Source: an uncultured Porphyromonadaceae bacterium (GTDB taxonomy: Bacteria; Bacteroidota; Bacteroidia; Bacteroidales; Muribaculaceae). From it: 35,824 nt of DNA. Positions 15,060-20,319 of the stretch are shown in pieces. A program made the translations under genes and the position numbers. Location of the stretch: contig CAMWQB010000015.1 in the NCBI GenBank assembly GCA_947176295.1, positions 1-35,824 of the forward strand, given 5' to 3'. Below the pieces are notes generated by a model, which saw nothing but the letters and a program-made list of their open reading frames with translations, ran no database searches and was not told the origin of the DNA. Each line of letters begins with the position of its first letter. Position 1 is the first letter of the stretch.

Positions 15060-16700
15060 TCAGTTCAGTTCTGACGCCGCCTCCCGTAGCCGCTCGTCGT
15101 CGCTTTCCAGCATCCTTTGCCGCAGGCGTGTCCTCACGGTGTAGCACGTCTCCGGCCTGATGTCGAAGACTACACTCACCACCTTGGGCTGAAGCCCCGA
15201 AAGCGACAGCACGAGGATATGGAAATCCCGGGCTTTCAGGCGTGGGAGGCTCCTCCGTATGTGCGAGGCCAGCCCGTCGTGCACTATGTCGAACTCTTCC
15301 ACGAGGGCCTCCATTTTTTCGCGTCTGCCCAGTTCTTTCAGGGCCTCTTTTGCCATGGCAAGGATGTTTTCGCGCTCCCCCGCCGGCGTTCCCGCCGGGA
15401 GTTTGAGATAGCGCAGCGATAGCTCGTTGATTCTTCTGAATTGCTCGTGGAAGAGGCTGCGCATCTGAGAGTCCCTGGATTTCATAGCATCGCTCATCTC
15501 TGCAATCACCGCCATCTTCCTTTCTAAGAGCTTGCGGCGACGTCTCAGAGCGGCCCTGTACCACACCACCAGAGTCGAGAGAATGGCAGCCGCTATGATG
15601 CATCCCCATAAAAGCCGCTTCCGGTCGAGGAGGCTCCGGTCTGTAGCCTCGGCCTTTTGCTTGGCCCGGTAGTCGGCCAATAGGCGGCTCAGACGGTTGT
15701 TGAGATTCTCGATGCTCTCGTCGGCTACGATTCTGCGGTATTCCTCATAGTCGCGTAGAGCTCCGGCACTGTCGCCCGCCTCTTTTTTGTAGAGATATTG
15801 GGCGTAGCGGTATCGCATGTCGCCTTCTCCGCCATCAGCCAAATTCGCGCCCCATTCATCGAGAATTCGAAGCGCCTCCTCGAGCTTGCCCTCCATTATG
15901 GCCAGCCGGGCCTCAAAACTTGCCTCCGGTTCGAATTTTGCTGTTGTATATCGCATCGCCTCCCCGAAACTTTTCCGGGCTTCCGGAAGTTGCCCCATAT
16001 AGTATTCCGCGACCATCCTGTGATTATAGGCCACGCTCATCACTGCGCTGTCTTCAGGGGGTATCTGCGGAATTATGCTGTCGAGTATCCTTCGGGCACC
16101 CTCAAAATTGAATAGATTGATGTAGGCTGCGGCTTCTTCAATTTTGGCATATCGATAATTTGGTTCCAGACCGGCGGCTTTAAAAGCCTCTGTGGCCCGA
16201 AGTATGTGGTCCAGGGCCGACCTTCTGTTCCATCGACGAATATAGAAATCCGATATTGTCTCGTTCAGGCGTCCGATATATTCCGTTTCTCCTAACTTTG
16301 AGGCTATGTCCAGGCCCTCCAATGCCGGAATAAATCCGGCTTCAATATCGCCGGACAGGTCGCAAATCTCCGCAAATTGGAAATTGGCCCGCATAAGGCG
16401 CCTGAGGTCGCCCGTCCGCCGGAAGTAGTCGGCGCTTATGCGCAGCGAAGCCGTGTCCTGATTCGTTTCATACATTTTATAGGCTATCTCTGCCCTAAGC
16501 AATATTGCCAAGGCGCTGTCGGCCATTCCTGTTTCGCGCGAGGGCATATACGCGCGTAACATCTCATTTGCCGAATCGGGCCGGATTTTTATTGCGTTTT
16601 CAACTCCCAACAACGTGGCGTCATATCTTCTGGGTCCGCATGACAACAATGCGAAAACGAAACATGCAAAAAGCAAACAGCGGACGAGAAATGCTTTCAT
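15060..16700 (-). CDS. TPR-transmembrane-HTH regulator
   Basis: This 546-residue protein is of a Bacteroidales type that links a periplasmic TPR domain through one membrane helix to a DNA-binding tail. It has an N-terminal signal/lipobox-like segment (ALLSC, C21), helical TPR-like repeats (about 30-340), one membrane helix (about 362-383, followed by ALRRRRK), a coiled linker and a C-terminal helix-turn-helix (about 490-535; FHILVLSLSGLQPKVVSVVF, then VRTRLRQRM). I infer that it senses an envelope signal and regulates nearby transcription. It is transcribed divergently from the serpin/protease island, and the two share a 264-bp intergenic region, so that island is a plausible target. Its base composition is intermediate between the GC-rich flanks and the AT-rich island. 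Confidence 0.75.
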   Translation of the reverse strand: MKAFLVRCLLFACFVFALLSCGPRRYDATLLGVENAIKIRPDSANEMLRAYMPSRETGMADSALAILLRAEIAYKMYETNQDTASLRISADYFRRTGDLRRLMRANFQFAEICDLSGDIEAGFIPALEGLDIASKLGETEYIGRLNETISDFYIRRWNRRSALDHILRATEAFKAAGLEPNYRYAKIEEAAAYINLFNFEGARRILDSIIPQIPPEDSAVMSVAYNHRMVAEYYMGQLPEARKSFGEAMRYTTAKFEPEASFEARLAIMEGKLEEALRILDEWGANLADGGEGDMRYRYAQYLYKKEAGDSAGALRDYEEYRRIVADESIENLNNRLSRLLADYRAKQKAEATDRSLLDRKRLLWGCIIAAAILSTLVVWYRAALRRRRKLLERKMAVIAEMSDAMKSRDSQMRSLFHEQFRRINELSLRYLKLPAGTPAGERENILAMAKEALKELGRREKMEALVEEFDIVHDGLASHIRRSLPRLKARDFHILVLSLSGLQPKVVSVVFDIRPETCYTVRTRLRQRMLESDDERLREAASELN

Positions 16701-16964: not shown

Positions 16965-17361
16965 ATGAAGACCAGAAATCATTATCTTCCTCGTTTTATT
17001 ATTTGCTTATCCGATTGCGACGTGGGGCACTGATCCCGGTAAACCAAAAGAGTTACCCGATGATCCGCCTATTGTGCTCACTCCCCCGACGCCTAAATCT
17101 CATACGGAGGATGGGAGTATTTATGAGGGCTCCGATATACTAGCTTTTATATCAGCTGAAAAGGAGAGGCTAACAATCGTTTTCCCTCAAGACGAAGGAT
17201 TGGTATGTGTGGAATTGTTGGATCTCAATGGTATGATAATATATAGTGGCATTCACCCCTCGTGCTCCCCTATCATAGTAGGCGTTTCGTCTTCATATTT
17301 TCCCATGGAAATTGTTGTAACCACACCAGATGGAACTCAATACTGTGGATGGGCTGAATAA
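16965..17361 (+). pseudogene. Small secreted protein with N-terminal frameshift (DUF3244-like)
   Basis: The ATG at 16965 opens a frame that stops after 22 codons. One base over, the frame from 16981 reads a clean signal-peptide core (IIFLVLLFAYPIATWG), then a Pro-rich stretch (PPIVLTPPTPKS) and a ~90-residue beta-rich domain ending CGWAE at 17361. Its segments LTIVFPQD, VELLDLNGMIIYSG and FPMEIVVTTPDGTQY are spaced as in the small secreted DUF3244-type or sorting-domain-like beta sandwiches of Bacteroidales. A one-base excess between 16965 and 16981 separates start from body, and the body frame has a TGA right at that point. It is therefore a frameshifted gene unless it uses a rare start codon or the base is a sequencing error. 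The family assignment is tentative. Confidence 0.5.
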
Positions 17362-17425: not shown

Positions 17426-17500
17426 ATGAAAAAGTTTTTACTGATTGCTGCAACCGCAGGTTCAACCCGGCTTCTCGTAACGACTACAGAAATAATGTAA
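17426..17500 (+). pseudogene. 24-codon signal-peptide remnant, possibly of a serpin
   Basis: The open frame begins MKKFLLIAATAG, a typical signal-peptide start, and ends 12 residues later. After the AG it reads STRLLVTTTEIM, which resembles GTRLAAVTTGGL in the 77-residue serpin fragment just downstream (shared TRL and VTT; DNA ACCCG.CT and GTAACGAC). It may be an older, more decayed copy of the same fused remnant. The match is short, so chance cannot be excluded. Confidence 0.35.
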
Positions 17501-17505
17501 AATGT

Positions 17506-17535
17506 TTTGTAGTAGCAAAAAATGATCTAACTTTG
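17506..17535 (+). promoter_or_regulatory. Promoter for the mini-serpin/protease/serpin operon
   Basis: TTTG (17506-17509) and TAACTTTG (17528-17535) lie 18 nt apart, close to the Bacteroidetes consensus. The first start codon follows at 17578. Confidence 0.6.
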
Positions 17536-17577
17536 AATTGATATATTTCCAGATTTAACCCTTAACACATAATTCGT

Positions 17578-17811
17578 ATGAAGAAATCAATATACCCGAT
17601 AGCGATAGCCGGATTGATGCTCTGCGGGGCTTGCTCGGAGGATAAGGGAACCCGACTGGCTGCAGTAACGACCGGAGGACTTGCCTCCGGAAATATTACA
17701 GATGTTGAACATGTGTCGATGACTGTTGACCGTCCGTTCTACTATCTGGTGCGCAACATGACTACAAATGCTGTGCTGCTGATAGGTCGAGTGTGCAATT
17801 TTCAAATTTAG
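17578..17811 (+). CDS. Lipoprotein mini-serpin: signal peptide joined to serpin loop and C-terminus
   Basis: This 77-residue frame has a lipoprotein signal peptide whose modified cysteine is probably C19 (LCGAC, followed by SEDK, an acidic surface-export-type signal). A remnant of a serpin hinge follows (EDKGTRLAAVTT, residues 21-32), then a short loop. The C-terminal part matches the PROSITE serpin signature exactly (MTVDRPFYYLV, 48-58) and ends LLIGRVCNFQI as serpins do. The ~300-residue serpin body is absent. A good promoter lies upstream and the next gene starts 40 bp downstream, so it may be expressed. It is either the product of a large internal deletion or a short loop peptide with a new role. 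It cannot inhibit proteases as a serpin does, since sheet A is missing. Confidence 0.7.
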   Translation: MKKSIYPIAIAGLMLCGACSEDKGTRLAAVTTGGLASGNITDVEHVSMTVDRPFYYLVRNMTTNAVLLIGRVCNFQI

Positions 17812-17851
17812 CAAACGACGTATAAAAACGTGTAAAAAAAACAATCACTGC

Positions 17852-18772
17852 ATGAGAAAGCTCAGACAACTCCTGATTGCAGTGGCTCTCATCTCCACTC
17901 TGGAGGGCTCTGCTCAAATGTTGCTCGATTATGCAACAGGTGCCACTACGGCATCCTCCGCACTCCCCATGCCCGTCCGGGACATCGAAAGCCTCCCGAA
18001 CGGCAACATTAGAGTTACCTACAATATATCCACAGCCTTTCTTTCACGAGCTCCTATGTCAAGAAACGTATACACGTGGGTTGTGGGTGGCTTCGGATTC
18101 TCCATGTCTGAAGGTAAAGAAGCTATTCCTTGTCGAATTGATTGCTTTTATGTTCCAGAGGGCAAAACGGTTAAGATTACTATCGACTCTTTAGAAACAA
18201 CAAGCTTTCAATACAGCATTATGTCTTCAAGTAAACCCGCAGAAGAAAATAGTAATGGCAACAATTCATTAAACGAATTAACTTCTCCTCAGATTTTAGA
18301 AACAAACGTATCAAATAGTAATTCCTTTTCATTTGATTATTGGGCCCGCCTCAAGAATATTCAAACCTACCGAGGCGTAAACTTTGCTAATGTAAAAGTA
18401 AAATCCATATTTCCATCGATTTCTATTAATGGAAGACCAAATATTGTCGCACTTAAAAAACTATCTTATCTTGTTGAATTTATAGAAGACGAAAACACAC
18501 AGTCTGCGAATAAGTCAAAAAAAGATAAGGATCTGAGACTAGCTGTAGACGATCGTATGATTCTGATGGGAATAGAGAAAGAACCTCTTAAAGACGGCCA
18601 GCTTGTAGGCGGTTCCGGTGGTGGTAACAGCAATTCTCCAGTATTCCCAATTGACTATTCTTTTGATTTAAGCAACCAAATCTATTCTGTTGACAAAACT
18701 TATGTAATTATCACTACCGATAATTTAAAGGCATCAGACAATATAGTTGATTCAAAACATTTTACAAAATAA
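17852..18772 (+). pseudogene. Truncated gingipain-like (peptidase C25) protein, catalytic domain missing
   Basis: The 306-residue frame starts with a signal peptide (LLIAVALISTLEGSAQ). It then reads like the pro-region of C25 cysteine proteases: VRDIESLPNGNIRVTYN, a beta-rich middle, and YRGVNFANVKV with a hydrophobic partner strand KLSYLVEF. It next enters the first strand of the catalytic domain (DKTYVIITTDNLKAS) and stops at HFTK, where family members continue with a WK-containing helix. The catalytic His and Cys are therefore absent. The stop is only 8 bp before the serpin start, as if a deletion had joined the two genes. It sits in the AT-rich island between two serpin-related genes. It could persist as a secreted pro-domain, which can inhibit the mature protease in this family. 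The C25 call rests on pattern, not alignment. Confidence 0.55.
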
Positions 18773-18780
18773 AATAGAAT

Positions 18781-20199
18781 ATGAGAAAGAAAATAATAAA
18801 CAGTCTGGAACGGCTCGCTTGTAGGATGTTTATTCTGCTTATAGCTGCGATGGGGTTTATTTCGTGCTCAGAAGAATCTCCGGCGTTGATTCCAGAACCT
18901 ACAGAAGAGGAGCCGATTGAAGAACCAAAGGAAGAACCTGGAACAAATGAAGAACCTACGCCCATAGGGAGAAGCCGCGATATCCTCCTTTCTGCGGAGC
19001 AGCAGAAACTCGTTGATGCGACAATCTCTACATGTTTTGAATTGTTCAGAATTCAGAACGAAATAGAGAAAAAGAAGCGTAATGGCGAGATTGAAGATGA
19101 GTTTGCAAAAGTTTTTTACGATACTTCAAATCCTGCAAATATCATCTCTTCACCTCTAGGGATGATGTGGTCTTTATCAATGTTAGCCAATGCTGCTGAT
19201 GGAAATTCTCGACAACAGATAATTGAAAGTATGAATTTTGATGGATATCCGATTGAAAAAATTAATTCATTTTTCAATTTTATTGGTACCCAACTCATGA
19301 CCCTCGATTCCTCATCTAAGCTTAACATCGCTAATTCCGTATGGCTTAGACATATGCTACGTCCTTACGTAAAGGAGAGCTTTCTCAACATTATGTCAGA
19401 TTCATTTAATGCCCCATATAAATATATAGAAAGTTTTTCACCAAATTACGATGGAGCTCTTATCAACGAATGGGCTGCTCGGGAATCGGATGGATTCATA
19501 AATCCCTTTGTCTATATTCCCGACGCAGAGAACAAGTTTTTATTGGCAAATCTTATATATTTTAATGCAGGTTGGACTTTACCTTTCGATGAAGAGAAAT
19601 CAGCGGAAGAAACTTTCTACAATGAAGATGGAACGACTTCAAAAGTGAAAATGATGTCTACCGATTACCGTCAGTTCAAGAAAGTCAGCGCCGACGAATA
19701 TGTGGCCTTAAGAATGCCATACGGCAATGAAGCTTTCGCGATGATAGTTGTATGGCCAAGGGAAGATATAGACAAAGCGCTTGCCGAAATTACGGATAAT
19801 CCAAGTAGAATCACCAATTTGGCTAAAGATATTATTGTAGTTGACGGACATATTTTACGCATTCCTAAGTTCGATTTTAAATTTACATCTGTCTTTAACC
19901 AAATAGTAAATGGTCTTGGAATTGAAGAAATTTTTGATGAAAGTATGGCGAATTTTGACGGCATGTTAGTTGACGATCCTAATGGATGGACAGAAGCTCA
20001 CGCCTCATACGCGATTCAAACGTGTCGTATCTCTATAGATGAAAAAAAGACGGAGGCAGGCGCGGGATCTTACATATTAGGCCACTCCGGTGAAAATCCC
20101 GACCCGCTCGTCATCACTCTCGATCGTCCCTTCCTCTTCTTTATTAGCGAACGAAGCACCGGTCTCCCGATATTCATGGGCCGAATCGCTCAGTTCTGA
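18781..20199 (+). CDS. Lipoprotein serpin
   Basis: This 472-residue serpin is probably anchored in the outer membrane. C29 in the lipobox FISC is followed by SEES, then by a Glu/Pro-rich spacer (about 31-63). The serpin core has NIISSPLGMMWSLSMLANAA, NIANSVWL, ANLIYFNAGWTLPF and the C-terminal signature ITLDRPFLFFI (about 445-455), ending MGRIAQF. The length is normal for a serpin plus spacer. The reactive-loop hinge reads EKKTEAGAGS, which keeps the P14 Thr and small P12-P8 residues but has Lys where inhibitory serpins have P15 Gly. Inhibition is therefore plausible but not certain. By family knowledge it would trap serine or cysteine proteases at the cell surface. It is the last gene of the mini-serpin/protease/serpin operon and is clearly AT-richer than the flanking genes. 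Confidence 0.88.
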   Translation: MRKKIINSLERLACRMFILLIAAMGFISCSEESPALIPEPTEEEPIEEPKEEPGTNEEPTPIGRSRDILLSAEQQKLVDATISTCFELFRIQNEIEKKKRNGEIEDEFAKVFYDTSNPANIISSPLGMMWSLSMLANAADGNSRQQIIESMNFDGYPIEKINSFFNFIGTQLMTLDSSSKLNIANSVWLRHMLRPYVKESFLNIMSDSFNAPYKYIESFSPNYDGALINEWAARESDGFINPFVYIPDAENKFLLANLIYFNAGWTLPFDEEKSAEETFYNEDGTTSKVKMMSTDYRQFKKVSADEYVALRMPYGNEAFAMIVVWPREDIDKALAEITDNPSRITNLAKDIIVVDGHILRIPKFDFKFTSVFNQIVNGLGIEEIFDESMANFDGMLVDDPNGWTEAHASYAIQTCRISIDEKKTEAGAGSYILGHSGENPDPLVITLDRPFLFFISERSTGLPIFMGRIAQF

Positions 20200-20294
20200 T
20201 GCAAAAACTTTAACACCTTCGCCGAAGGCACGCCCCGAGAAGGGGGGGGGATGCAATCTGTGATTTTGTGAGTATTTTTCACGGATATGAAGGG

Positions 20295-20319
20295 AGGCGA
20301 GCTCTTGATGGGCTCGCCT
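20295..20319 (+). terminator. Possible terminator after the serpin
   Basis: An 8-bp perfect stem, AGGCGAGC (20295-20302) with GCTCGCCT (20312-20319), is followed by TTCGTTT, a weak T-tract. It lies in the otherwise featureless 20200-20345 gap. A poly-G run (GGGGGGGG) is near 20242-20249. Confidence 0.45.

Follow-up and report, generated by a model that had tools for sequence, protein, structure and literature searches.

The closest described relatives of the protein considered here are the bacterial serpins (PF00079), among them miropin and the siropins, which share with it the hinge, the reactive loop, the DRPF signature and the C-terminal strands, but which also possess the core that it lacks. 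Another familiar class is that of internally deleted gene remnants, in which both ends of a gene are kept, the middle is lost and the neighbours are damaged. In inhibitory serpins the hinge from P17 to P9 reads ExGTEAAAA (PMC8233489). The genomic setting has a described counterpart in the C10 operons of Bacteroides, where C10 lipoprotein proteases are encoded beside small inhibitors (PMC3462683). The partners described there are staphostatin-like, whereas in the genus studied here C10 has a serpin and a DUF3244-like protein as neighbours, and at the locus reported below, unlike in the Bacteroides operons, the C10 gene is itself a remnant.

This locus lies in the window, by which we mean the whole stretch of 35,824 nucleotides that was analysed, and it centres on a 77-residue frame, here called the mini-serpin, which runs from ATG to TAG with the frame, length and coordinates first described (Table 1). 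We consider it highly probable that the mini-serpin is the in-frame deletion remnant of an ordinary full-length secreted serpin gene, in a locus whose neighbouring genes are damaged as well.

Table 1. Features of the C10 protease/serpin locus in the window
Feature	Position	Strand	Basis or remarks
DUF3244-like small protein, start broken	17074..17361	+	phmmer to C2, G066 and C74 copies; three-frame translation
C10 (streptopain-type) protease remnant	17426..17541	+	leader joined out of frame to C-terminal codons
Bacteroidetes-type promoter TTTG-N18-TAACTTTG	17506..17535	+	strict pattern match; overlaps last codons of C10 remnant
Mini-serpin ORF, 77 aa	17578..17811	+	leader with Cys19, followed by the hinge, reactive loop and C-terminus of a serpin
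Segment between mini-serpin end and C74-like 3' flank	17800..20251	+	about 2.45 kb
306-aa ORF, C25 (gingipain-type) propeptide-like	17852..18772	+	between mini-serpin and full serpin
Full-length serpin, 472 aa, lipoprotein-like leader	18781..20199	+	Pfam Serpin 12-368 of 370, 222 bits
3' flank with inverted repeat (by eye)	20252..20317	+	63 of 66 bases identical to C74 serpin end and downstream

Residues 22-74 of the mini-serpin match positions 319-369 of the 370 in the Pfam Serpin profile (31.5 bits against a cut-off of 27, E 1.4e-07), so the serpin tail is no chance resemblance, and a sequence search of the PDB likewise returned serpins, at a best E of 0.0008. When aligned with 66 serpins of the genus that are full-length or nearly so, drawn by profile from 93 matches with short fragments and some full-length proteins left out, the frame consists of the leader and the hinge-to-end block only, which bears out its preliminary description as a secretion leader joined directly to a serpin loop and C-terminus. 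Profile positions 1-318, and with them the complete fold of sheet A and core helices, are absent; without sheet A the inhibitory mechanism cannot operate. The hinge, DKGTRLAAV, agrees with the inhibitory pattern at P16 (Lys), P15 (Gly), P14 (Thr) and P11 and P10 (both Ala) and deviates from it at P17, P13, P12 and P9, and does not conform to the inhibitory hinge as a whole. The nearest tails are those of the serpins on contig C74 of the same genome and on contig C11 of genome G066, another species, each 68% identical in amino acids and 76% in nucleotides from DRPF to the end. From hinge to DRPF the best amino-acid identities among the 66 serpins are 53% (C74), 47% (C42) and 43% (G066:C11), and the mini-serpin is thus no recent copy of any serpin seen in its own assembly.

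Both extremities of the frame depart a little from what had been claimed for them. The leader and Cys19 of the proposed lipoprotein signal peptide are present, but the residues before the cysteine are L-C-G-A, with Cys at -3 in place of the Leu found in C74 (LGAC) and G066:C11 (LCSC). Cysteine at -3 falls outside the lipobox pattern. Lipidation of the mini-serpin is likely without being clear-cut, and the C74 serpin, too, begins with a lipoprotein-like leader. At the other extremity the serpin signature and tail are confirmed, but they do not extend over the final QI and the stop, for the homology with C74 ends at 17799, and the last codons belong to the segment on the 3' side of it.

The course of events that we propose begins with an ancestor that would have closed an operon of DUF3244-like, C10 protease and serpin genes. 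Roughly 356-361 codons, as measured on three relatives, would have been deleted and the serpin core with them, the frame being preserved by chance; what is found is a leader and the last 55 or so codons of a serpin, joined in frame. The adjacent C10 gene would have lost its interior in a like manner, but out of frame, the DUF3244-like frame would have lost its start, and a segment carrying a second serpin and what seems to be a truncated C25 gene would have come to sit at the 3' end of the mini-serpin. From the old serpin promoter, transcription would still run across the remnant into the downstream serpin, and the product would most likely be a short exported peptide without inhibitory function. 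Both ends of the gene are homologous to serpins, the middle is absent and other genes at the locus are damaged, as in internally deleted remnants generally; it differs from the usual examples in that its frame has happened to survive and its promoter is intact, a perfect match to the pattern. These two features, together with a tail that scores above what an old pseudogene would be expected to give, count against a remnant, and no undeleted copy of the mini-serpin gene was seen, so the junction is presumed and not proved. The tail reaches 66.1 bits, like the tails of whole serpins (25 of the 66 full serpins lie below it). On the same scale the tails of three broken or orphan serpins give 52.9, 59.8 and 70.2 bits and so span this value, which means that the tail score does not separate a remnant from a functional peptide. 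A few bases are shared near the presumed cut in the relatives, which is suggestive only.

The damage on the 5' side affects two genes. The DUF3244-like frame matches its copies in C2 (own genome), G066 and C74 with phmmer E-values of 6e-17, 5e-14 and 1e-12 in a search of these three targets only. It is open from just after about 16968 and contains no ATG, GTG or TTG before 17074, and the nearby ATG at 16966 sits in a different frame. Against Pfam DUF3244 itself the copies of the window, C2 (23.7 bits, cut-off 25) and C74 fall below the cut-off, and the G066 copy gives no match. The C10 remnant keeps a leader, which starts at 17426 (MKKFLLIAAT), and the last 20-25 or so codons, at about 17461-17538 (FNPASRNDYRNNVKCFVVAKNDLTLN), followed by a stop at 17539-17541. 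Its start is identical in 35 of 40 bases to the start of the small lipoprotein gene on C74. Its tail aligns precisely at the C-terminus of the L065 C10, L065 being the G066:C11 locus (9 of 18 identical, score 45, with 1 in 2000 shuffles as good), and weakly with the C-terminus of the C10 of L068 (p 0.10); in the other four of the six C10s tested there was no C-terminal alignment, the matches lying elsewhere or at chance level. The C10 identity of the tail is accordingly drawn mainly from one relative, L065, helped by an alignment with G066 that extends from the C10 end to the serpin start.

Intact versions of this layout are found in relatives. Contig C2 of the same genome carries in a row a DUF3244-like protein (127 aa), a C10 protease (424 aa) with a Spi-type propeptide (Inhibitor_I69) and a serpin (419 aa). 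On G066:C11 a small DUF3244-like relative (no Pfam match), two C10s, another ORF and a serpin are found, and the start of the mini-serpin aligns with the start of that serpin through the C10 end, the promoter, the 5' leader and the signal peptide. A C10 protease just upstream of a serpin is also present in L066, L067, L068 and L086.

Shortened C10 genes occur elsewhere too. On C74 a 68-aa lipoprotein-like ORF (L014:1000-1206) lies upstream of the intact serpin and has the look of a C10 that lost its middle in frame and kept the leader, the propeptide start and ...YFTVSKK; Pfam detects neither a C10 nor a C10 propeptide there. Before whole serpins the C10 is partial in L086:1532-2308 and L074:392-1342, and in L081:2034-2345 (minus strand) it is reduced to a leader-like match.

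The claim that the mini-serpin has its own consensus promoter is borne out by a credible match, which ends 42 nt before the ATG and fits the consensus of the Bacteroides primary sigma factor, TAnnTTTG at -7 with TTTG near -33 (PMC7366714). The strict pattern occurs five times in the window against 0.18 expected, each time 37-42 nt upstream of the ATG of an ORF, namely four ORFs of 546-770 aa and the mini-serpin. Among 67 serpin starts (66 full serpins and the mini-serpin), 12 have a strict match within 120 nt upstream. One of the 12 is the G066:C11 serpin, whose promoter stands 47 nt from the ATG and overlies the end of the C10 coding sequence, as it does in the window; the promoter of the mini-serpin is thus explained by descent.

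The same promoter bears on a reading that adds to a remnant origin and does not compete with it, and that we hold possible, if somewhat doubtful: the frame may be kept as a leader ORF for the sake of its promoter and start, on which the 306-aa ORF and the full serpin would depend, the peptide itself being irrelevant. Selection may in that case maintain promoter and leader ahead of the full serpin. On the plus strand the match at 17506 is the only one, strict or loose, before 20348, the next ATG follows 40 nt after the stop of the mini-serpin, and a simple scan found no terminator-like site on that strand between 17811 and 18781. Another type of promoter could nonetheless serve the full serpin, and sigma-70-like matches do lie near 18747-18780, at chance rate. 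The operon proposed earlier keeps its full-length serpin downstream, but this is not the next gene, since the 306-aa ORF intervenes, and the co-transcription is something that we infer.

The preliminary description had named the absence of conserved homologues of this length as what would speak against a decoy. Absence is what was found. No second short in-frame serpin lipoprotein was present in 61 genomes; in 49 genomes of the genus, where 93 serpin matches to E 0.01 fall in 33 genomes, the only one was the window's own; and in 393 genomes of the order (76 matches to E 0.001, in 68 genomes) it was again alone, the other 75 lying in open frames of at least 226 aa. The three sets overlap, and each includes the genome of the window. 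A scan of genome contigs gave two distant relatives, at 38%, among the matches listed. A literature search limited to one collection found no published report of a protein like the mini-serpin.

Several candidates for a second mini-serpin were considered and set aside. G061:C52 is a frameshifted serpin, G006:C77 an orphan serpin tail behind another gene and without a leader, and G003:C106 a partial frame without a leader, while G066:C50, G001:C140 and G001:C20 run off contig edges. In G072:C76 (L048, reverse complement of about 1880-2207) a lipoprotein-like leader and a serpin tail are joined out of frame, the picture that such an accident leaves if the reading frame does not survive. None of 17 other frames below 200 aa in the 61-genome search is a short in-frame protein of leader plus tail: two are serpin tails without a leader (G058:C107 and again G006:C77), and the remaining 15 are not serpin-like, eight of them by a serpin-tail profile (nothing above -0.8 bits) and the rest by eye. 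A viral or plasmid origin was rejected: viral contigs gave 47 pattern stretches but no relative, plasmids gave no DNA match, and a search by protein gave only five distant serpin-like matches.

The dN/dS comparison that had been suggested across homologues was made with a codon model instead of pairwise, because synonymous sites are near saturation. In a branch model of low power (five sequences, 55 codons, three tree shapes) omega was 0.42-0.44, about 0.43, on the mini-serpin branch against 0.12-0.13 elsewhere. The gain over a one-ratio model was 1.5-2.0 lnL units, and setting omega to 1 on that branch cost 0.6-0.8. Relaxed selection on the branch is suggested; neutrality is not rejected, and some constraint is also compatible with these values.

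That the product is a functional surface peptide appears very improbable on this evidence. A lipid-anchored loop and C-terminus might bait proteases, or the hinge might insert into sheet A of the neighbouring serpin and thereby modulate it. The intact frame, the real-looking promoter and an orientation shared with the full serpin agree with such a role. Against it stand the lack of any homologue of this length in the genomes searched, a neutrality that was not rejected, the breakage of both genes upstream and the hinge itself, for TRLAAVTTGG is unlike the TEAGAGSYIL of the neighbouring serpin and the two proteins are 19% identical from hinge to DRPF. Very improbable, too, is the specific course in which an in-frame deletion created a serpin-loop lipoprotein, expressed from the old serpin promoter ahead of a full serpin, that baits proteases or inserts into a serpin sheet; we know of no self-made serpin-loop peptide of that kind in bacteria. 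The premise that free loop peptides interact with serpins is sound, as a study of an insect serpin achieved a block in vitro with hinge peptides 5-8 residues long, but longer peptides were less effective there (PMC7359039). If functional, the product would be the natural equivalent of the synthetic loop peptides with which serpins are blocked. Of the two options first offered, the precise in-frame deletion remnant is thus favoured by the damaged neighbours, the missing homologues and the unrejected neutrality, whereas a decoy, bait or modulator has in its favour the intact frame and the promoter, the latter explained by descent.

As a deletion remnant, the mini-serpin matters little by itself. 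It does illustrate that a tidy short frame, complete with promoter and familiar motif, can turn out to be the scar of a deletion, recognisable only from its neighbours. The locus also adds to the changeable C10 protease/serpin operons of the genus, several of which combine a whole serpin with a shortened or broken protease.

On the 3' side the homology to C74 is interrupted. It stops at L014:2562 (window 17799) and restarts at L014:2557 (window 20252), with a six-base overlap, TGCAAT, that stands on both sides of the segment (17794-17799 and 20252-20257); the segment thus sits where the end of the serpin gene would be. Long copies of the 3' flank in the same genome were found only in the window and on C74. 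The flank is 95% identical to C74 and the coding tail of the mini-serpin 80%, so the two sides may differ in age, and a later exchange with C74 is possible. Within the segment, residues 8-214 of the 306-aa ORF match the N-termini of L079 and L080 (G033 and G069), both Propeptide_C25 plus Peptidase_C25 by Pfam, with E-values near 1e-8 when only four selected proteins were compared. The search of the genus gave these two at 2e-6 and 5e-6 and a third match, with stops, at 3e-4. There was no significant match to the two C25 proteins of the same genome (L085), nor any Pfam, NCBIfam or PDB match of the ORF's own; NCBIfam returned nothing for four proteins of the window. As the ORF ends, in a comparison by eye, about 25 residues into the C25 catalytic domain, it is apparently a truncated C25 gene. 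The full serpin behind it has the hinge DEKKTEAGAG, in which P15 is Lys and both P11 and P9 are Gly, against Gly and Ala in the inhibitory hinge, and is perhaps no inhibitor of the standard kind.

The source is a 138-contig assembly of metagenome type, and a false join of two serpins or strains has to be weighed; we regard it as very unlikely. The one junction that can be measured shares six bases, which is too short for an assembler to join, and several separate junctions, in the C10, in the serpin and at the 3' segment, would all need to be wrong.

Barely credible, finally, is a silent cassette from which full serpins would acquire reactive loops and C-termini through recombination: 3' exchange does seem to happen in the genus, since four G018 serpins share their 3' ends, but their loops differ and only the ends are common, and we rejected a loop donor because the mini-serpin loop recurs in none of the 66 serpins, the C74 loop coming closest.

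The G018 serpins, on C1, C9 and C29 (two), in L114, L109 and L086, have in common the last 25 or so codons and, by eye, about 45 nt downstream; their C-terminal nucleotide identity is 0.87-0.96 against 0.44-0.48 in the cores, which looks like gene conversion of the 3' end. Weak-TPR proteins adjoin three C10/serpin loci, in the window (15060-16700, minus strand), at L082:21-1640 and at L077:913-2616; that of the window runs opposite to its C10/serpin locus and alone reaches the cut-off (25.4 against 25).
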